44,065 bases of DNA from Nostoc sp. CENA543. GTDB lineage: Bacteria; Cyanobacteriota; Cyanobacteriia; Cyanobacteriales; Nostocaceae. Location of the stretch: assembly GCF_002896875.1 (NCBI RefSeq), contig NZ_CP023282.1, forward strand, positions 1 to 44,065. Reading direction: 5' to 3'. Position 1 is the first letter of the stretch; every line of letters starts with the position of its first letter. Below are positions 3,047-43,845 of the stretch, in pieces. Made by a program: the position numbers and the translations under genes. A model generated the notes under the pieces. That model did not search any database, was not told the DNA's origin, and saw nothing but the letters and a program-made list of their open reading frames with translations.

Positions 3047-6000
3047 ATGAAAAACCCAATTGGTGCTTTTGAAAAGTTACGCGACAACTTAATTCTTTAT
3101 ATTAAAACAGCTTTTGGTACACAATTTCCTGAAATTGAGAGGGAGCGAGAGCGACGTTTACGTGAAACAGGTGTCTTTTATCAAGAACCTTGGATTGAGC
3201 CTTTACCTCGTTATAAAAAATCTGGAAAAACAATTAATAATTTACAAATTTCAGATGTTCCAAGTTTAGATAATTCTTCACTACTAGATTTTAAAGAATT
3301 AGCTACCTGTGGGTTGGTTGGTGATTTTGAATTATATACCCACCAATTAGAAATGCTATGTAAAGGATTAACTGGACAAAATGCAGTTGTTACTGCTGGG
3401 ACTGGTTCAGGTAAAACTGAATCTTTCCTCTTACCTTTGTTTGCTTACCTTGCTAAAGAATCAAAAAATTGGCAATTACCAGAAGAACCACCACTTCATA
3501 TAAATGATTGGTGGAACAATAAAGAGTGGCAGAATGAATGTAAACCACTTGTAAATAAAAGGCGCAGTTTTAAGCGGTCTTACCGCGTACCTCAAAGGAG
3601 CCACGAAAAACGTGATGCTGCGATGAGAGCATTAATTCTATACCCCATGAATGCCTTAGTTGAAGACCAGCTTACCAGGTTACGTCGCGCTTTAGATTCT
3701 GACGAGGCACGAGAGTGGTTTCAGAAGAATAGAAACGGCAATAGAATCTACTTTGGCAGATACAACGGCGTTACACCTGTACCAGGACATGAGCAGAAAG
3801 AAAATGGGAAACCTAATGGGGAAAAAATAGAAGAACTTCTTAAAGAAATGCAGCGGATGCAAAAATCAGTATTAGCTGCTGAAAAACACACTAACAACGA
3901 GCGTGAAAAACTGATAAATCAAGGTTACAGCCCTGAAGAAGCAACCAATATATCCCAGGATGTGAAATTCTTTTTCCCACAATTAGATGGAGCAGAAATG
4001 CGTTGTCGTTGGGATATGCAAGATGCTCCACCTGACATTTTAATTACTAATTATTCCATGCTCAGTATAATGCTGATGCGTGATATTGATAAAAATATTT
4101 TTGAGAAAACACGGCATTGGTTAAATAAAGAAGACAGTATTTTTCACTTAATTCTTGATGAATTGCATCTTTATCGCGGCACTGCTGGAACAGAAGTTGC
4201 TTATCTAATTCGCCTATTATTGCAACGTTTAGGGCTTTACCCTGGTCATCCTAAATTAAGAATTCTTGCCTCTAGTGCATCTCTTGAGCCGGATGATCCA
4301 GAAAGCTTAAAATTCTTATCTGAATTTTTTGGTACAGAATGGTATTCCAACCAAATTATCCCTGGCTATCCTGAGCAAATCGCAGCAGTTTCTACCCAAA
4401 AAAATTTAGATAGTAAACCGTTTATTGCCTTAGCGAATGCACCAGAGGACGCTAGTTCTATCAAAGCTTGTTTGCAAATTTTGTCATCAGAAAATGATAC
4501 TTTTGGTGCTAGAATGCTTAACGCTTGTAAACTATATGATAAAATTCGTGCTGTATCTATTACACAATTTGCAAAGGGTATTTTTGGTGAAAATTTAGAT
4601 CAAAAAAATCTTAGTTTAGCAGCAAAAGGATTGCTAATTGCGCGGGGTCTATCAGAAGATAAATCTTTAGAATCATTTCGGTTTAGGTTGCATTGGTTTT
4701 TCAGAAATATTGATGGACTTTGGTCTTGCACTCAACCAAATTATGATTGTCATAAAGATGAAAGTAGTAATAGCCGACCAGTCGGTAGACTATTTGTAGA
4801 AAATCCCCCAATAGTTTATGATGGCTTCCGAGTACTAGAAATGTTATTGTGCGAACAGTGTAGTACTGTCTTTTATGGTGGAAACCGCTTGGATTTAAAA
4901 GAAGATGGCTGGGAACTTCTACCTACAGAACCAAATATTGAAGCAATTCCTGACAAACAAATTGGTAGTTTTTTAGAACGGCGAACATATCGTGAATATG
5001 CTATTTTCTATCCTTTTAGAAATATTTATGACCAAGAATTTAGTAAAAAAGGCTGGTTTCAACCCTCAAGAAGAGGTGGTGGTAAAGAGACAGGATGGTG
5101 GGATAAAGCATCATTAAATACCCGCACTGGTCGAGTTATTCTTGGAGACCCAGACCCAGATGCACTAAATAATCAATGGGTTAAAGGCTACATTTATAAC
5201 TTGCGGAAGACATCGCTAGAAATGCAAGAATCTATGGCAGCGCAACCTTCTATTTGCCCATGTTGCGGTACAGATTATAGTAAACGAAAATCTCGCCTAT
5301 CTCCAATTCGAGGCTTCCGTACTGCCTTTTCTAGATTGAGCCAACTGCTTTCTAAGGAAATATTTTATCAGTTACCTGAAAAATTAGGTTCTCGTAAATT
5401 AGTTGTCTTTTCTGACAGCCGTGAAAATGCTGCTTCAATATCAAATGGAATTGAACGTATTCATTACTATGATCTTGTTCGTGAAGCAATATTTGATGTA
5501 CTCAACAACTTAGCTGTTGGTGAAGCCTATTTGTTGGAAGATATTCAAAAGCATGGTCAAGCAGTTCGACCAGAAGCAATAAAATTTGCTTTACGTAAGT
5601 CTAATGCTGTCGAAGATTTTAAAAAAGCTCTAAAAAACGCTAATAAACCTTTGCCAAATGGACTTGATCCTGACGATTTAGAAGTATTACAAAATCGGCG
5701 AGATGAAGCGCAAAATCTCATCGCTAAAACTCAAGAAAAAGCAAAAACACGGATAGTTCCACTCAAAGTTTTATTTGAAGGGGAAAAAGACACTCCAGGA
5801 CTACTTATTCAGAGATTAGCAGCGTTAGGTATCAATCCTGCTGGTAACGATATCAATGACCAAAATTTTGATTATGATCATGAATCACATCATTGGACAG
5901 AATTCTTTGATTTTACATCTCAACCACCTAAATGGAAAGCTAACTCTTCTAGGGAAGCAATCGACAAGCGATATACTCTTATATCAAAAGTACAGACTGA

Positions 6001-18703: not shown

Positions 18704-19216
18704 ATGCTGACATCTCATCAGATTAGATGTTTACAAACTACAGAACGTTGCCTCAGAGAAATTCAATCTTCAGAAGAATTTAGGCAATTAAACTACTATC
18801 CAGACATAACGCTTAGTGATGCAATTCAAGCAGTGAGTGAATTACTTGATGAACACCAGATTGGTAATTACAACTCCCCAAACTTTACTAATAAAGACTT
18901 GCTCAAGTATCTAGAACAAAAACCAGTTATGCACATTCGCCGTGTAAATAATTGGCATGAAAAGATTAACTTATTCATACTAGATGCAGCCAAAGAAGTA
19001 GCAATTCTGAGCTTACTAACTACTGGTTTTATGGTTGTTGGTACTATCTTTTGTCGTGGTATTGACCGCATTGAACGCAGCAGAGGCGAGGAATATCAAC
19101 CCACATGGATTAACAACGCTAAAGTATTTGAAGGAAGTGCCATTGCATCTATTGCTGTCTTCTTGGGTGCGAGTCTAACTGGTGCGTGTGCATCTGGAGA
19201 TAAGAATGATGATTGA
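18704..19216 (+). CDS. Small membrane protein of unknown function
   Basis: The frame is open from 18515, but the ATG at 18704 has AAAGGAG 7 bases upstream and begins MLTSHQIRCLQTTERCLREI, so I take it as the start (170 residues). The N-terminal ~110 residues are hydrophilic and helical (EIQSSEEFRQ, SDAIQAVSELLDEHQIG). Two hydrophobic segments follow: AILSLLTTGFMVVGTIFC and GSAIASIAVFLGASLTGACA. The protein is probably inner-membrane anchored with a cytoplasmic N-terminus. It overlaps by 8 bases the start of the next gene, which a transposon has broken. No family recognised. Confidence 0.7.
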   Translation: MLTSHQIRCLQTTERCLREIQSSEEFRQLNYYPDITLSDAIQAVSELLDEHQIGNYNSPNFTNKDLLKYLEQKPVMHIRRVNNWHEKINLFILDAAKEVAILSLLTTGFMVVGTIFCRGIDRIERSRGEEYQPTWINNAKVFEGSAIASIAVFLGASLTGACASGDKNDD

Positions 19217-19427
19217 TCAAGAGCTAGTCAGATGTGTCACACTATTAACCCAAAGTAAGACTTACTGGATTGATGGAACACTGTACAGATACCTAACCTG
19301 TAGCGACAGCATCCAACACACACAATATTATTTTCGTCCTTTACCGCATCAATCAAAAAGAGTTGACTTAAAGCTCAATCGTGACAAAGTGCTAAGACGC
19401 TGCTATGAAATCCCTAGCTTATATAGA
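19209..19427 (+). pseudogene. 5' part of 89-residue gene split by the transposon
   Basis: Starts at ATG 19209, overlapping the upstream gene by 8 bases, and encodes 73 residues (MIDQELVRCVTLLTQSKTYW...) up to the transposon boundary at 19427. The last two codons, TAT AGA, are the target duplication. Removing the element and one duplicate copy restores an uninterrupted 89-codon frame ending at 23410. The frame as it stands instead reads a few codons into the transposon end. Function unknown. Confidence 0.7.
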
Positions 19428-19682
19428 TGTAGCGAACTGCAAACATAAACGCTTCAAACTGCAAACAAGTCAATTTTCAAACCACATTAACTGCAAATAA
19501 GAGGGGTCTTCAAACCACAATAATTGCAAATGAAACCACATTATCTGCAAACAAACCACAATAACTGCAAATGAAACCACATTAACTGCAAATAAGCCGT
19601 AACCCATGCTGTGATTGGGCTAGAAGATTTATCACTGCAAAAGTGTCCAATTTATACGAACTTTTACACCGAACATATATGT
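19428..19682 (+). repeat. Left terminal inverted repeat of transposon
   Basis: 255 bp, identical to the inverted right end except one base (CGAACATAT here, CGGACATAT there). Five copies of the 19-bp unit AAACCACAWTAWCTGCAAA (one has ATTGCAAA) start at 19479, 19512, 19533, 19553 and 19574. Two half-units, ACTGCAAAC, sit near the tip. Spacing of about 20-21 bases places the units on one face, as expected for transposase binding. The inner part (about 19640-19682) may hold the resolvase site. Confidence 0.9.
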
Positions 19683-19761
19683 ACGCTTTTCGTGGTTTAA
19701 TTTGAACTAATACCGTTCGATTAAATCTAGAAAGCTGTTTTTACCGACAGCCAGTTTGGTC

Positions 19762-20397
19762 ATGGCCATTTACGCTTATCTGAGGGTCTCCAGCGACAAA
19801 CAAGACGTACACAACCAACGACATGGCATTTTAGAATATGCCAATATCCACGCTTTAAGTCCCATCCAGTTTGTAGAGGACACAATTTCTGGACGGGAGA
19901 AATGGTTAGAGCGAGGTGTAGGACAACTACTGAATCAAACAGCCCAAGCAAAAGATATAGTCATTTTTTCAGAAGTTAGTCGGATGGCACGCTCCACCCT
20001 ACAAGTATTAGAAATGCTGGAGTGTTGCGTGCGTCGAGGAATCAACGTCCATATCGCCAAACAAGGTATGGTACTGGATGACTCAATGCAAAGCCGAATT
20101 ACAGCAACGGTTTTAGGCTTGGCAGCAGAAATCGAACGGGAATTGATTGTACTCAGAACAACCGAAGCACTAGCTAAACGTAAAGCTGAAGGAAAAACTT
20201 TAGGGCGACCCAAAGGACGACAATCTGCACATTTGAAACTGGACACCAGGGAAGCAGAAATTCGCAGTTATTTAGCCAAAGGAATCAGCAAACGCTCAAT
20301 TGCCAAACTGGTCGATTGTTCACCTTCCACCCTCTACGATTGGTTGTCACGCAAACATCTCCACCCACGCCACGATAAATTGGTGGAGAAATCATAG
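19762..20397 (+). CDS. Serine recombinase / resolvase (TniR-like)
   Basis: A 211-residue resolvase/invertase family protein. The ATG at 19762 gives MAIYAYLRVSSDKQD, the standard N-terminus, with catalytic serine S10; the upstream TTG at 19756 adds only two residues and is less likely. Conserved blocks include FVEDTISGRE, VIFSEVSRMARS and LGLAAEIERELIVLRTTEALAKRKAEGKTLGRPKG. A helix-turn-helix follows (GISKRSIAKLVDCSPSTLYDWL). It probably resolves cointegrates formed during replicative transposition, acting at a site in the inner transposon end. Its TAG is one base before the transposase start, so the three transposon genes form one operon. Confidence 0.93.
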   Translation: MAIYAYLRVSSDKQDVHNQRHGILEYANIHALSPIQFVEDTISGREKWLERGVGQLLNQTAQAKDIVIFSEVSRMARSTLQVLEMLECCVRRGINVHIAKQGMVLDDSMQSRITATVLGLAAEIERELIVLRTTEALAKRKAEGKTLGRPKGRQSAHLKLDTREAEIRSYLAKGISKRSIAKLVDCSPSTLYDWLSRKHLHPRHDKLVEKS

Positions 20398-20398
20398 G

Positions 20399-22048
20399 AT
20401 GCCAAAGAAACAAATACCAATTGATGCAATCGTAGACCTACGTCGCCGCTTAGACCAACTACCACCGCGCAGTCCATCTCGTCGGGAATTAGTCCAAGAA
20501 ATAGCTCAACTGTATGGCATTTCTGAAGATACAGTGTATCGAACACTACGATCCGGGAATGTAGTTCGCCCAGTACGTCGCGTTGATTGTGATGTACCGC
20601 GTGTAATTCCAAAAGGAACTCTTGAGCGATACTGCGAAATTATTGCTGCGATTAAAATACGTACATCTAACCGCAAAGGTCGCCATTTATCTACCGTACA
20701 AGCAATTCGCTTATTGGAAGAAGATGGCATCAACACACCAGATGGTCATCTTCGCGTTCCAGTAGGTTTGCTCAAACCAACCACCGTCAATCGTTATCTC
20801 AACAAATGGGGCTACGACCGCGATACCCTTCTACGGCAACCGCCTGCTGTTCGCTTTCAGGCAGAATATAGCAATCAATGTTGGCATTTTGACCTCAGCC
20901 CATCAGACCTCAAGCACGTTAAAGCACCAGCCTTCCTAGAACCGGGGCGGGGGCATCCCTTGTTAATGCTTTATAGTGTTGTGGATGACCGAAGTGGTGT
21001 TGCATACCAAGAATACCACTGTGTTTACGGTGAGGATGTGGAAGCAGCACTGCGGTTTATGTTTGCTGCCATGTCACCCAAACCGGGGAGCGACTTTCCC
21101 TTTCAAGGCATTCCCCAAATGCTGTACATGGACAATGGCCCCATTGCTAAGAGCTTAGTGTTTCAAAAAGTCATGGGTTATTTGGGGATTGAAGTACGTA
21201 CTCATTTACCTGCGGGCAAAGATGGGCAACGAGTGACGGCTCGTTCTAAGGGGAAAGTGGAAAGACCCTTTCGCACGGTCAAAGAAATGCACGAAACCCT
21301 TTACCACCTGCATGAACCGGAGACGGAAGCTGAGGCGAACGCTTGGTTGATGAAGTTTTTGCTCCATTACAATAGCCGACCCCATCGCAGCGAACCTCAT
21401 TCCCGGCTGGACGATTGGCTCTTACACTTACCCAAGGCGGGAATTCGACAAATGTGTACCTGGGAACGTTTTTGTACATTTGCACGCGAACCAGAACGTC
21501 GCAAAGTCGGCATCGATGCTCACGTTATGGTTGAGGGGGTGGCTTATGAGGTTGAGCCAGATTTGGCTGGAGAAACTGTAGTTTTGTGGTGGGGTTTATT
21601 TGACAACGAATTGTACGTAGAACACAAAGAACGGCGCTATGGACCATTTCTACCTGTAGATGGGCCAATCCCCCTACATCGCTACCGTAGTTTTAAGAAA
21701 ACACGTACACAGAAACGGGCAGAGCGAATTGAATCTTTAGCTAAAGAGTTGTCTTTACCGAATTCTGTGATTGGTAAAGGCAATAACCCAGATTTCGGGA
21801 GTAATACAACCCCACTAAAGGTGCAGCCTTTTGTTGACCCTAACCCATTTCAAGAACTGACATTCAGCACGGTGATTGCAGCCAAATTAGCGATCGCTGA
21901 TTATTTGGCACGCCCATTAGCAAAACTTACCCCTGAACAAATGGCTTATATTGATGCGGTTCTGGTGACTACTCTCAATAAGCAGGAGGTAATCAAACAA
22001 ATTCGAGATTTCTTCCACCCCTTATCAGGTACGAGCGATGTTGAGTGA
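20399..22048 (+). CDS. DDE transposase, TniA/TnsB-like
   Basis: 549 residues from ATG 20399, one base after the resolvase stop; the open upstream frame overlaps that gene and is not used. An N-terminal helix-turn-helix region (ELVQEIAQLYGISEDTVYRTL) and a second DNA-binding region precede an RNase H-fold core with D165 (HFDLSPSD), D245 (MDNGP) and E288 (KVERPF). A Mu-type C-terminal beta domain (VMVEGVAYEVEPDLAG) and a C-terminal tail likely to contact the ATPase follow. It cuts and joins the transposon ends. The coding end overlaps the ATPase gene by 11 bases. No TnsA endonuclease is present, which predicts copy-and-paste transposition with cointegrates, consistent with the resolvase. Confidence 0.92.
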   Translation: MPKKQIPIDAIVDLRRRLDQLPPRSPSRRELVQEIAQLYGISEDTVYRTLRSGNVVRPVRRVDCDVPRVIPKGTLERYCEIIAAIKIRTSNRKGRHLSTVQAIRLLEEDGINTPDGHLRVPVGLLKPTTVNRYLNKWGYDRDTLLRQPPAVRFQAEYSNQCWHFDLSPSDLKHVKAPAFLEPGRGHPLLMLYSVVDDRSGVAYQEYHCVYGEDVEAALRFMFAAMSPKPGSDFPFQGIPQMLYMDNGPIAKSLVFQKVMGYLGIEVRTHLPAGKDGQRVTARSKGKVERPFRTVKEMHETLYHLHEPETEAEANAWLMKFLLHYNSRPHRSEPHSRLDDWLLHLPKAGIRQMCTWERFCTFAREPERRKVGIDAHVMVEGVAYEVEPDLAGETVVLWWGLFDNELYVEHKERRYGPFLPVDGPIPLHRYRSFKKTRTQKRAERIESLAKELSLPNSVIGKGNNPDFGSNTTPLKVQPFVDPNPFQELTFSTVIAAKLAIADYLARPLAKLTPEQMAYIDAVLVTTLNKQEVIKQIRDFFHPLSGTSDVE

Positions 22049-23027
22049 TGTCATGACTTATTTTGGTCTGAAACGTACCTTAGACCATGTGGGGTATTTT
22101 GAGACCCAAGAGCAGACAAATCTATTCAAAGAACTGAAACCCCAAATTAGGCAAGGTCGTTTGATTGCGATAACAGGTGTTGTTGGTTGTGGTAAAACAA
22201 CGACTTTACAACGACTGCAATTGGAATTGTCCTCTGAAAAAGACATAATTATTTCTCGTTGCCTTGCAATTGACAAAGATAAGGTCAACGTCGGGGTTTT
22301 GATGAGTGCTTTGTTTTTGGATTTAAGCACAGAAAAGGATGCTAAACCACCGACTCACCCAGAACTTAGAGAACGAAAATTATTAGCTTTGATTCAAAAA
22401 TGCCGTAAGCCTATAGTGCTGTTTGTCGATGAAGCTCATGACATTCATCACAGTACGTTAGTCAAAATTAAGCGTTTAATTGAATTGGTACGCCAGAATG
22501 GTTGCACTTTATCTGTAGTGTTGCTGGGTCATCCCAAGTTGAAAAATGATCTGCGCCGACCATCTTTGGAAGAGATTGGTGCTAGAACCAATATTTTTAG
22601 TTTAGAAGGTATTAGAGGACATCAAGTTGAGTATATAAAATGGCTATTGAGTGAGTGTATTTACGATGATTATCTACCTGAAGATTTGATTACCGATGAG
22701 GCTATTGAATTTTTGGCTCAACGACTGACGACTCCCTTGCAAATTGAACATTATTTGCAGAGGGCTTTTGAAGACGCTTATCAAGCAGCAACTAAGCCTG
22801 TCACCCGTGATATGGCTGAAGCGGTCTTGAACGTAGGACTTAACGATTTAGAACCCCGCTTAATACGGCATGGTTACAATGCTAAAGTTCTAGCTGAGTT
22901 ATTAAATATACGAGTAAGTGAAGTAAATTCTTTTATACACGCTCAGTTACCTCCAGGTCGAACCCAAGATTTGAGAGACCAGATGTTAAAAATGGGAATT
23001 CCTTTGTATGCGTCAGAGGGAAATTAA
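22038..23027 (+). CDS. AAA ATPase, TniB/TnsC-like
   Basis: 329 residues. Walker A is TGVVGCGKTT at about 45-54 and Walker B is IVLFVDEAHD at about 127-136. RTNIFSLEGI and a C-terminal winged-helix-like region follow. The family includes TniB, TnsC, MuB and ExeA-like ATPases that bind target DNA and activate the transposase. It is slightly longer than typical TnsC of type V-K elements (about 275 residues). With no TniQ encoded, target choice may depend on this protein alone, as with MuB. The last 50 residues contain a possible extra helical domain (LAELLNIRVSEVNSFIHAQL). Confidence 0.88.
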   Translation: MLSDVMTYFGLKRTLDHVGYFETQEQTNLFKELKPQIRQGRLIAITGVVGCGKTTTLQRLQLELSSEKDIIISRCLAIDKDKVNVGVLMSALFLDLSTEKDAKPPTHPELRERKLLALIQKCRKPIVLFVDEAHDIHHSTLVKIKRLIELVRQNGCTLSVVLLGHPKLKNDLRRPSLEEIGARTNIFSLEGIRGHQVEYIKWLLSECIYDDYLPEDLITDEAIEFLAQRLTTPLQIEHYLQRAFEDAYQAATKPVTRDMAEAVLNVGLNDLEPRLIRHGYNAKVLAELLNIRVSEVNSFIHAQLPPGRTQDLRDQMLKMGIPLYASEGN

Positions 23028-23098
23028 GTCAAAACAAGAAATACCCCATATAAAATTTTTCTGTTTTATTAGTGTTTGATTTATATCTAAATAAATAG

Positions 23099-23353
23099 AC
23101 ATATATGTCCGGTGTAAAAGTTCGTATAAATTGGACACTTTTGCAGTGATAAATCTTCTAGCCCAATCACAGCATGGGTTACGGCTTATTTGCAGTTAAT
23201 GTGGTTTCATTTGCAGTTATTGTGGTTTGTTTGCAGATAATGTGGTTTCATTTGCAATTATTGTGGTTTGAAGACCCCTCTTATTTGCAGTTAATGTGGT
23301 TTGAAAATTGACTTGTTTGCAGTTTGAAGCGTTTATGTTTGCAGTTCGCTACA
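23099..23353 (-). repeat. Right terminal inverted repeat of transposon
   Basis: Mirror image of the left end with the same five 19-bp units and the same spacing, ending in GCTACA at 23353. The preserved symmetry suggests both ends bind transposase identically and that the element has not decayed. Confidence 0.9.
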
Positions 23354-23410
23354 TATAGACAGCACACAGCACAGATAACTAACAACTCAATACAGTTGAG
23401 TTTGTTCTAA
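23354..23410 (+). pseudogene. 3' part of 89-residue gene split by the transposon
   Basis: Starting with the second TATAGA copy, the frame continues CAG CAC ACA and encodes about 16 further residues to TAA at 23408-23410, in phase with the part before the element. This phase match supports a recent, precise insertion. Confidence 0.65.
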
Positions 23411-23725
23411 ATCGAAGTAACAAATATTTTCTAACGCAGTGTGATGACTGCATCAAATACACGATTAGAGGGCATATACACAGGGGAAAATCAAAAAGTG
23501 TCAGTATGTCAGGAAAACTGACAAACTCTGTTATTACGTGGTTATAGCCTCTCAGTCCAAAGCTAAAACATTTGTCTAAAGTCAAAAATCCCAGGTTATT
23601 GATAGTCCCTAGCTAATTTAGCGGATCAAGATAACTGTTTCTACCTAATTTAGCTATACAAATAACCTGAATCTCAGGATAGTCAGTCAATTCTATACAC
23701 ACTTAAGTAATCAAACAGAATCAAT
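23411..23725. other. Spacer with stem-loop before the IS701-split gene
   Basis: No gene seen. CAGGTTATT (23592-23600) can pair with AATAACCTG (23661-23669) around inner CTAATTTAGC direct repeats, and TGTCAG/CTGACA lie near 23499-23523. This may be the control region of the 23726-29275 gene cluster. Confidence 0.4.
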
Positions 23726-24041
23726 GTGGCAACAAAAAGATATGTAACTAAGTATCGCTTTCTCAAAGAAACTTACGAACGCATTACAGCCAAAAGCATT
23801 TCAGATATCACTTGGTATCGGTTAGTTGCATCCTTAAAGCAATATTTCTCACTGGAAATTGAATCACCAAATGCTCAAAGCATTGTTGAAACCTACGCTT
23901 ATTTGAAGCGCAAATGTCCAGCCTTTTCATTTAGAACCTCTGACTTTAACGAACGCTGGCAAGCCTTCAAACACTTCTATGATGCACAGTTAGTTCGATA
24001 CACAGGTCAGCAATTTCTAGTCGCACTTGCAGACTATTTAA
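23726..24041 (+). pseudogene. 5' part of 170-residue gene split by IS701-family element
   Basis: A GTG start at 23726 gives MATKRYVTKYRFLKETYERI and about 105 codons before the insertion at 24041. Past that point the frame runs into the element and stops at 24100. Joining across the TTAA duplication restores 513 bases (170 residues) ending at 25631. The protein is basic and aromatic-rich (RTSDFNERWQAFKHFYDAQ) and of unknown function. It was the first gene of the cluster that follows, so the insertion may also alter expression downstream. Confidence 0.75.
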
Positions 24042-25430
24042 CCCTGTTTTGTCACTCTAGGCAGAGGAAAAGTAGAAATCAGGGTGAGTCAGGAAAATAA
24101 ATATTGAACTGGTGAGGTGATAAATAATAGATTGAAGTTTAGAAAAACCCAAGGACAATTGGGGAATAGGAAAAACTGTTAACCAGGGATATATTAGGTT
24201 AAATAAAGTAAAAGGTTGAATTATTAAACGGAGATTGTTAAGAATGTTCTTCCAACCCTTTCCATCATCCCACCAAGGATGAACAGCAAATTTTGATGGA
24301 GATTCAGGCACAGAAAACTGCATTTGTTCAGAGTGAAGGCTAACCATTAAATAGCTACTACAAACAATCTCCCACCAGCGTTCAATATCCGCATAGTGAG
24401 TCAGACGATAATCTGCCCAACCTAATTCATTCTTACTTTGCTTCAAGCCATATTCAACCCATGTTCTTAACCCATAGAAATTCCCAACTTCCCTGGGTGT
24501 AATATCGGGATATTTAGTCATGACATACCAAGTAGAGTTTCCTGGCAACTTTTCAACGTCTGTGGTGATCTGCCAATATCTATGTTCGCTACGTTTTCCG
24601 TAAATTATTTCTCTAATATATCGATTTTCACTGTCGAGGTCAGAAAATACACGTTTAAATCTCTGCCACTCTAGATATTGAGTATGCTGTCGTGGAAGTA
24701 GCTTTACATCGTGGTTTGAGCGAATTGCCACTATATAGTTTAGATTCATTTCATCTAACACTGATACAAAATTAGTTCCGCTTTCTCCATACAAACTATC
24801 TGCCAATACTAAATTAAATTTAAAGCCTAGTGACTTGAGCTTTCTGATTAAATTAGCGGCTATTTGTGGCTTGGTTAGATACTTATCTTCTGGTTTTAAT
24901 CTTTCACGCGGCTTGTATACTTCAAACAGCAGAGGAAAGGTCATTCCGCAGAATACACCGTATGCTGTAACCACTACAATTCCATTGTCAACCTTTCCTA
25001 AGTTTCCTATATATTGTCTTTTGACATAATCTGTTGATGAGCCTTTCTTTCTATCTCCAGTTTCGTCAATAATTAAAACGATTGGTCTACCTTTTATGAT
25101 TTCTAAAATTAGTTCTAAACGTAAAGCTCTTAGCTTCTCTATTTCCCAAGGTGATTTAGTTAAGAAATGATGTAAGCCTTGCTGATTATCTAATCCTACA
25201 ATTTTGGCTATTTCTGGTAATGTTTTCCGTTTTAGTTCGGAAATGCAACCTATATGCAGGTATTTAAATGCTTCAAAGCTTCTAACATCTGAAAACAGAC
25301 TTTTATACCACTGGCAATATTCGTCCACGAATTTGATCGTTTTCACGGGTGAACGAGGCTCTACCATTCTCTGTGCTTACGTTCTAGAGTTTTTACGTTC
25401 TTATACTACCGCGAAAGTGACAAATCAGGG
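24042..25430 (-). mobile_element. IS701-family insertion sequence
   Basis: A 1389-bp element with ends CCCTGTTTTGTCACT (left) and, inverted, CCCTGATTTGTCACT (right), 14 of 15 matching. It is flanked by TTAA at 24038-24041 and 25431-25434, which fits the 4-bp YTAR-type duplication known for IS701. It carries one transposase on the minus strand and looks intact. Confidence 0.9.
24057..25367 (-). CDS. IS701-family DDE transposase
   Basis: 436 residues, the usual family length, nearly filling the element. RNase H-fold motifs are present: LIIDETGDRKKG (first Asp), LVLADSLYGES (second Asp), and a C-terminal block WVEYGLKQSKNELGWADYRLTHYADIERWWEIV containing the catalytic Glu and the family's Y...R...E region. 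Its stop codon lies only 16 bases inside the left end. The full-length frame and good ends suggest an active copy. Confidence 0.92.
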   Translation of the reverse strand: MVEPRSPVKTIKFVDEYCQWYKSLFSDVRSFEAFKYLHIGCISELKRKTLPEIAKIVGLDNQQGLHHFLTKSPWEIEKLRALRLELILEIIKGRPIVLIIDETGDRKKGSSTDYVKRQYIGNLGKVDNGIVVVTAYGVFCGMTFPLLFEVYKPRERLKPEDKYLTKPQIAANLIRKLKSLGFKFNLVLADSLYGESGTNFVSVLDEMNLNYIVAIRSNHDVKLLPRQHTQYLEWQRFKRVFSDLDSENRYIREIIYGKRSEHRYWQITTDVEKLPGNSTWYVMTKYPDITPREVGNFYGLRTWVEYGLKQSKNELGWADYRLTHYADIERWWEIVCSSYLMVSLHSEQMQFSVPESPSKFAVHPWWDDGKGWKNILNNLRLIIQPFTLFNLIYPWLTVFPIPQLSLGFSKLQSIIYHLTSSIFIFLTHPDFYFSSA

Positions 25431-43760: not shown

Positions 43761-43845
43761 GCGAACTGCAAATATAAATCGTCAAAACTGTAAACAAGGC
43801 GATTTTGAAGTGATGAACAACTGCCAGAGCAGTATCTGCAATAAG
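43761..43845 (+). repeat. Diverged solo end of the same transposon family
   Basis: GCGAACTGCAAATATAAATC, then TCAAAACTGTAAACAAGGCG and ATTTTGAA align with the tip of the intact transposon (GCGAACTGCAAACATAAACG, TTCAAACTGCAAACAAGTCA, ATTTTCAA). Later CTGCC (43821) and CTGCAATAAG (43836) keep roughly the unit spacing. No matching second end or transposase was seen nearby, so it is probably a relic. Confidence 0.6.

Follow-up and report, generated by a model that had tools for sequence, protein, structure and literature searches.

Among the described systems closest to the element considered here, Tn552 lacks TniQ and makes target duplications of 6–7 bp, type V-K CRISPR (clustered regularly interspaced short palindromic repeat)-associated transposons (CAST) are guided by TniQ and Cas12k, and IS481 is a single-gene element. 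According to the accessible part of PMC8705779, phage B3 duplicates 6 bp of its target and Mu 5 bp; phages of the D3112 group start with TGT and end with ACA in the available sections of PMC5977238, and the accessible portion of PMC4739549 gives 5-bp repeats around a Tn402-like integron. The Tn6049 module is described in the available text of PMC6210171 as one that 'could not be categorized', and the accessible part of one open paper naming ISAzs36 uses it only as a label next to a resistance gene. We describe here an element of 3,926 bp at positions 19428–23353 of a 44,065-bp stretch of DNA from Nostoc sp. CENA543 (NZ_CP023282.1; the whole stretch is referred to as the window, and is one complete contig of a 7.2-Mb host genome). 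We regard this, with considerable confidence, as an autonomous and recently active replicative transposon built on a transposition module of the B3-phage type, and our confidence is no higher because few sequences of B3 and Tn552 entered the phylogenetic tree.

The two arms of the element are identical at 254 of 255 positions, with a lone mismatch at position 245, and TATAGA abuts the element on both outer sides, where a 5-bp reading gives no match. An earlier interpretation made from the DNA letters alone (the sequence-only reading) had proposed these coordinates, the symmetrical 255-bp ends with one mismatch and the 6-bp duplication, and all of these were borne out. The features of the element are as follows.

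19422–19427, no strand: left-hand 6-bp target duplication, TATAGA (NNTANN), from the sequence and empty sites.
19428–19682, plus strand: left terminal inverted repeat of 255 bp, from repeat comparison.
19428–19597, plus strand: seven motifs resembling transposase-binding sites (putative), with TGCAA cores at element positions 11, 33, 65, 98, 119, 139 and 160.
19673–19682, no strand: inner palindrome ACATATATGT, the innermost 10 bp of the left repeat, a candidate recombinase crossover site.
19762–20397, plus strand: serine recombinase (PF00239), from the open reading frame (ORF) and Pfam, with an alternative ORF start at 19756.
20399–22048, plus strand: DDE transposase TnpA of 549 aa, from the ORF and alignment, with D165, D245 and E288 as the presumed catalytic triad.
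22038–23027, plus strand: TnpB-like AAA ATPase of 329 aa, from the ORF and Pfam, with a start that overlaps the end of tnpA.
23098–23109: 12-bp palindrome GACATATATGTC enclosing the right ACATATATGT.
23099–23108, no strand: inner palindrome ACATATATGT, the innermost 10 bp of the right repeat.
23099–23353, minus strand: right terminal inverted repeat of 255 bp, from repeat comparison.
23354–23359, no strand: right-hand 6-bp target duplication, TATAGA, from the sequence and empty sites.

The nearest NCBIfam model to the serine recombinase is that of the Mpi invertase family, with a score under its cut-off, and the ATPase contains GVVGCGKT, which we take to be the Walker A motif. The duplication is supported by three plasmids from other cyanobacteria which retain the empty site, as these have the same backbone and a single 6-mer in place of the pair in the window (TATAGA in L048, and TATAAA in L047 and TATAAC in L049, both diverged). 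In L048 the overlap between the two flank alignments is exactly 6 bp, and in L047 and L049 the left alignment ends 2 bases short and reaches 6 bp only after extension. Five copies of the element were found in the host genome, and the C5 (window), C2 and C1 (6.99-Mb contig) copies are identical over 3,926 bp at three different sites, with C2 and C5 on small contigs. As these three identical copies have different flanks, chance is excluded, and their identity indicates recent movement.

The first 170 bp of the window end contain seven copies of a motif like AAACCACATTAACTGCAAAT, with an eighth TGCAA core located inward of the array at element position 209, and the eight cores per 255 bp compare with an average of 0.29 across 2,000 single-base shuffles. 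By analogy, this seven-site array resembles ends that bind several transposase molecules and may do the same. The 255-bp end is made up of the array and an inner block reaching the palindrome ACATATATGT at positions 246–255, and in most other delimited relatives the ungapped repeat is c. 165–172 bp, with some shorter and a few longer. A palindrome-type motif is found at both ends in all nine surveyed elements having a recombinase at least 88% identical to that of the window (three of the nine are identical copies, and the search pattern tolerated variants), at the left end only in one (86%), and at neither end in three (70–74%). The stretch between array and palindrome differs among C3, C4 and C5, yet left and right are the same within each copy, and in L018, L102 and L053 the left and right stretches differ. 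From these patterns we infer that the inner palindrome may be the recombinase site.

A wider survey of insertion sites began from 129 tnpA loci, 60 of which had no inverted repeat of at least 80 bp around tnpA (many are on short contigs or are truncated copies), and the removal from the remaining 69 of 12 loci with no clear terminus, four duplicates and five that were edge-cut left 48 delimited sites (45 distinct sequences, with several near-identical within one genome: L093, L121, L122 and L126). Because TGTA or TGTT was the criterion for picking termini, the TGT start is given by construction; TGTA is found at 98% of the delimited termini and the consensus beyond is TGTAGCGACCTGCAA. An exact 6-bp duplication was found at 21 of the 48 sites and all 21 fit NNTANN, with duplications of 3, 4, 5, 7, 8 or 9 bp found at none of the 48, including the 5-bp length which the sequence-only reading had named as grounds for its refutation.

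Relatives of the element are widely distributed. A protein search of plasmids matched 815 of 72,556 records at E 1e-3, and in 610 of these a single place spans 80% or more of the query. A genome scan produced at least 80 loci from cyanobacteria, alpha-, beta-, gamma- and deltaproteobacteria (Geobacteraceae and Desulforhopalus) and one acidobacterium. In the host's order, 32 of 291 genomes matched at E 1e-20, and viral contigs gave two loci. Salmonella and Klebsiella account for 391 and 150 of the 815 matching plasmid records, respectively, and relatives are therefore common on enterobacterial plasmids. Measured from where the tnpA match ends, the start of the ATPase gene lies at −7 to +51 bases in all 82 loci, and D165, D245 and E288 are invariant in all 46 aligned transposases (alignment A3 left out L110, L129 and L131, and alignment A4 left out L108 among others). 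A serine recombinase is found in 45 of the 48 delimited elements and a tyrosine recombinase in two, and one showed neither. The suggestion that the element has no cargo holds for the window copy with its three genes but not for the family, as the delimited relatives range from 3.2 to 7.9 kb and L143 has ORFs which, from their residues, we take to be mercury-resistance-like.

The closest match to the family lies with the B3-like phages. A tblastn search of phage genomes matched 55 of 50,697 records, 49 of these being Pseudomonas phages (best 4e-16, with 27% identity over 65% of the length), and in profile comparisons the transposases of two Beetrevirus phages, PM105 and SS2019XII, matched the family with P 99.7 and E 2e-25 over 416 columns, with their ATPase also matching (P 98.2, E 3e-14). 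B3 TnpA and TnpB are the best matches among all sets compared, and for the TnpA family profile the 13 TnsB/TniA proteins together reached 97.5% (E 5e-12), V-K-like TnsB 96.6%, IS21 95.5%, IS481 93% and MuA 0.4%. A tree of 39 sequences split the family plus B3 from the TnsB, TniA, Tn552, MuA, IS481, Tn6049 and IS21 proteins with 99% ultrafast bootstrap support (the trees were built without IS481_L188 and IstA_L198, and the IS481 and IS21 references were taken from eight other genomes because 15 relatives yielded only the element or nothing).

The sequence-only reading had called the element Tn7-like and suggested that it might be kin to the CAST lineage, either ancestral-like or stripped down; on this view TnsB and TnsC descent is combined with a TniQ that has been lost or not yet gained. 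It had proposed a phylogeny of the transposase as a check, and within our small sampling both profiles and tree place the transposase with the B3-like phages and outside the TnsB/TniA/Tn552 proteins. TnsB kinship is evident in the profile probabilities given above, and the TGT...ACA ends and site arrays are as found in Tn7-like elements (PMC8649781, accessible part), but the B3 match is better (2e-25 compared with 5e-12), the duplication is 6 bp and TA-centred, and rve (PF00665) is detected in only 10 of 46 family transposases at E 1e-3. For the window transposase, Pfam at E 0.001 gave only helix-turn-helix (HTH) domains, with Mu-transpos_C_2 at 0.006. We consider descent from the CAST lineage unlikely, and a distant kinship to TnsB at the superfamily level appears real, judging from profile comparisons and predicted folds.

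The same comparisons bear on a Tn552-like identity, in which a resolvase, DDE transposase and ATPase would make up the element with no TniQ. The recombinase–transposase–ATPase order is also that of the Enterococcus unit L203, which we label Tn552-like from its match and gene order. The Tn552 transposase is called related to B3 TnpA in the accessible part of PMC8705779, but the L203 transposase goes with TnsB/TniA (E 3e-41) and matches the family at only 1e-9, and the ATPase match is weak (P 22). The TnsB/TniA profile is far nearer to the Tn552-like transposase than to the family of the Nostoc element (5e-12), which places the family outside the TnsB/TniA group, and we regard a Tn552-like element as very unlikely. 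An ordinary IS481-family insertion sequence is what the NCBI naming of relatives suggests, with the Azospirillum annotation reading 'IS481-like element ISAzs36 family transposase'. However, an ATPase partner is present in all 82 loci, and five proteins chosen by IS481-model matches (a small and mixed set) match the family less well than TnsB or B3 do. The name carries little weight because a TniA-like protein matches the same NCBIfam model, NF033577, and we find this explanation the least credible of those considered. The IS21 model NF033546 gave 32.8 bits against a cut-off of 160, and the ATPase matched IstB with P 9.

A number of results weigh against a replicative transposon of the B3 type. 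The best NCBIfam model for TnpA is IS481 NF033577 (1e-22), albeit with 81 bits against a cut-off of 224, and the tree included only two B3-like and one Tn552-like sequence with 12 of the 46 family transposases. The grouping of TnsB, TniA, Tn552 and MuA had a support of 82 in one tree and 63 in the tree with B3, with the deep branches being weak. The structural model of TnpA is of moderate quality (predicted local distance difference test, pLDDT, 73; predicted template modelling score, pTM, 0.48), and in a Foldseek comparison of this predicted fold the ShCAST TnsB came first, ahead of IstA, with Tn7 TnsB also high and MuA at rank 20; this would favour the CAST lineage, and the 50 PDB matches listed include no chain from a B3 phage. 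The predicted ATPase fold (pLDDT 89) counts in favour of the B3-type reading, with Orc/Cdc6, clamp loaders, MuB filaments and TnsC among its best matches. For neither protein did sequence searches of the PDB turn up more than weak integrase or generic P-loop matches. Of two Leptospira B3-like duplications in the accessible part of PMC8705779, CCTACT fits NNTANN and AGATGG does not, and the left end of PM105 has only TG in common with the family. There is no room for TnsA in the window copy, and no TnsA profile was run on the relatives. Finally, 27 of the 48 sites lack matching flanks and therefore a duplication. Here 53 of the 54 flanks carry the central TA (chance c. 0.057 each), and so these copies look rearranged after insertion; nearly every end looks to be at an apparent genuine target, with over half of the sites having lost the original partner flank.

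TniQ was searched for with a local profile built from 18 proteins, 17 of which were recovered in a leave-one-out test (that of R751 was missed, at 0.0016). It was not detected in the window copy, in agreement with the sequence-only reading, and among 892 ORFs in the 48 elements only two matched, in L109 (1.6e-8) and L144 (4e-4), with a further match in the edge-cut L107 (2.2e-6). Neither of the two matches in the 48 elements exceeds the Pfam TniQ cut-off; the protein of the Okeania copy L109 is borderline (25.4 bits compared with 27) and might be cited in favour of CAST descent, and the L144 protein is not listed by Pfam. With that borderline exception, the other refuting result named by the sequence-only reading, TniQ adjacent in other copies, was not seen. 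All three matches are of one protein type with XRE HTH and double-zinc-ribbon domains (L109 3297–3764, L107 3167–3634 and L144 3042–3488, minus strand), and these elements carry a tyrosine recombinase in place of the serine one. This XRE/zinc-ribbon protein may offer a clue to the way in which a TniQ-like component is acquired. Outside any delimited element, the opening stretch of L170 has a 260-aa ORF which matches the TniQ profile (3e-22) with no Pfam family at 0.01, and is a possible TniQ fragment.

In the host genome, the C3 copy is 94% identical and is located at 3993–7916 of L014 (a small contig) inside a CRISPR array with 47 repeats in the stretch read (L014 3292–10618; 10 to the left of the element and 37 to the right), where one repeat is missing 18 bp between the two junctions; adjacent deletion via intramolecular transposition would explain this loss. 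C4 is 5,433 bp, with the ATPase gene split by another transposase gene in an insert of c. 1.5 kb (L015 7625–9129) having a 435-aa transposase-like ORF. For C2, one genome has the left flank natively but lacks the right, and other genomes (two checked) have the right flank natively but lack the left, which could reflect deletion or recombination. No cross-matching pair was found when the mismatched flanks of the host-genome copies were compared by eye. CRISPR-array targeting was considered because of C3 and rejected, as CRISPR-like repeats flank only one of the 48 elements.

For a TniQ-less, ATPase-linked transposon of the B3 type, the gene set and linked recombinases suggest a probably replicative route through cointegrate formation and resolution. 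The DDE transposase TnpA would bind the seven-site arrays at both ends and join the 3′ ends to the target 6 bp apart around the central TA, with the AAA ATPase picking or activating target DNA as MuB and TnsC do, without TniQ or a guide. As the element lacks a TnsA-like enzyme to cut the second strand, a cointegrate would result, which the serine recombinase (or the tyrosine recombinase in some relatives) would resolve. Transposition within the same replicon or recombination between copies could then leave elements with flanks from different NNTANN targets.

Elsewhere in the window, a remnant of a family end at 43761–43809 (94% to bases 5–53 of the C3 left end, with no element attached) is perhaps the scar of an older insertion. 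An intact IS701-family transposase gene (NCBIfam above cut-off) is located at 24057–25367, 0.7 kb from the element, and its end overlaps an ORF at 23726–24100. No Rfam match was found across positions 18900–24000. The host C1 contig also has separate TnsB/TniQ loci, L073 (near 3734300) and L072 (near 5324126); L073 adds a TnsC-like ORF, and in the trees its TnsB clusters with the V-K-like TnsB proteins.

The accessible text of PMC9952335, and that of PMC5977238 beyond its statement on D3112-group ends, had no bearing on the family. We found no description of the family as a unit in the open literature (subscription papers and ISfinder were outside the search, and it may be described elsewhere), and the element is probably an under-described variant of the ATPase-assisted, probably replicative transposons. 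A broader proposal, which we hold to be evenly balanced, is that a free-living transposon family spread across cyanobacteria, proteobacteria, Desulfobacterota-type bacteria and acidobacteria, with hundreds of plasmid records, shares its engine with the B3-like phages, perhaps as their source pool or the reverse; it would use a DDE reaction aided by an ATPase, with a fixed 6-bp target centred on TA and without a targeting subunit, and the inverted inner palindromes of one subclade could let the recombinase flip the element. Such a compact three-gene system makes the role of the AAA ATPase in target choice accessible without TniQ, a guide RNA or phage growth, and forms a link between phages of the B3 type and transposons on plasmids. 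The results further suggest that many plasmid elements named 'IS481 family' are another, ATPase-linked kind of transposon whose ends are defined; their annotation could then be corrected, and the 6-bp NNTANN footprint would allow insertions to be recognised.

In comparison with known systems, the element would work like those of the Mu/Tn7 type, although we do not place it in the Tn7-like group and it says nothing direct about CAST origins. The predicted folds of its transposase and ATPase are shared with TnsB and TnsC of the type V-K ShCAST, which are distant in sequence. It has in common with Tn7-like elements an AAA ATPase partner and arrays of c. 20-bp sites in both ends, but has no TniQ/TnsD selector, TnsB-clade transposase or 5-bp duplication. 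Tn402/Tn5053 (R751) shares the serine resolvase, DDE transposase and ATPase but has TniQ, and its transposase was undetected by phmmer at E 1e-3. Tn552-like transposons share the recombinase, DDE transposase and ATPase without TniQ, and their transposase (one sequence) sides with TnsB/TniA rather than with the family.

Tn6049 of Cupriavidus metallidurans has an IS481-like transposase adjoining an ExeA/GspA-like ATPase, and from gene order we take the pMOL28 locus NC_007972 22386–25312 (L211) to be this transposon; no serine recombinase is listed alongside in the incomplete gene table. Identity with Tn6049 was rejected as the similarity is only distant and over partial length (23–26% for the transposase and 26–28% for the ATPase; pMOL28 1–150000 of 171,459; PMC2864759, PMC4739549, PMC6210171 and PMC3414803, in their accessible parts). 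L211 is a second type of ATPase-linked transposon, distant from the Nostoc element.

The ISAzs36-labelled elements of proteobacterial plasmids have the same three genes (annotated as 'IS481 family transposase', recombinase and ExeA/AAA ATPase), a transposase 57–64% identical in the rows shown and 59–62% in those aligned, and like termini where ends were found (e.g. L050). They differ in having a recombinase only 23–29% identical to that of the window or undetected by BLAST, and repeats of c. 165–172 bp where measured (no repeat was found for L051, L054, L091, L094 and L095); some are longer with extra ORFs. The B3-like phages (Beetrevirus), at 36–39 kb and with virion genes, differ from the 3,926-bp element with its three genes and no virion genes, symmetric inverted ends and own recombinase, and B3 TnpB has an extra N-terminal part, as the ATPase match starts at residue 146. 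They nevertheless share with the element a homologous transposase and ATPase in the same order, a 6-bp duplication and TG...CA ends (PMC8705779, accessible part), and in PM105 a right end, TGTAGCG, whose seven bases are identical to the start of the family consensus TGTAGCGACCTGCAA.

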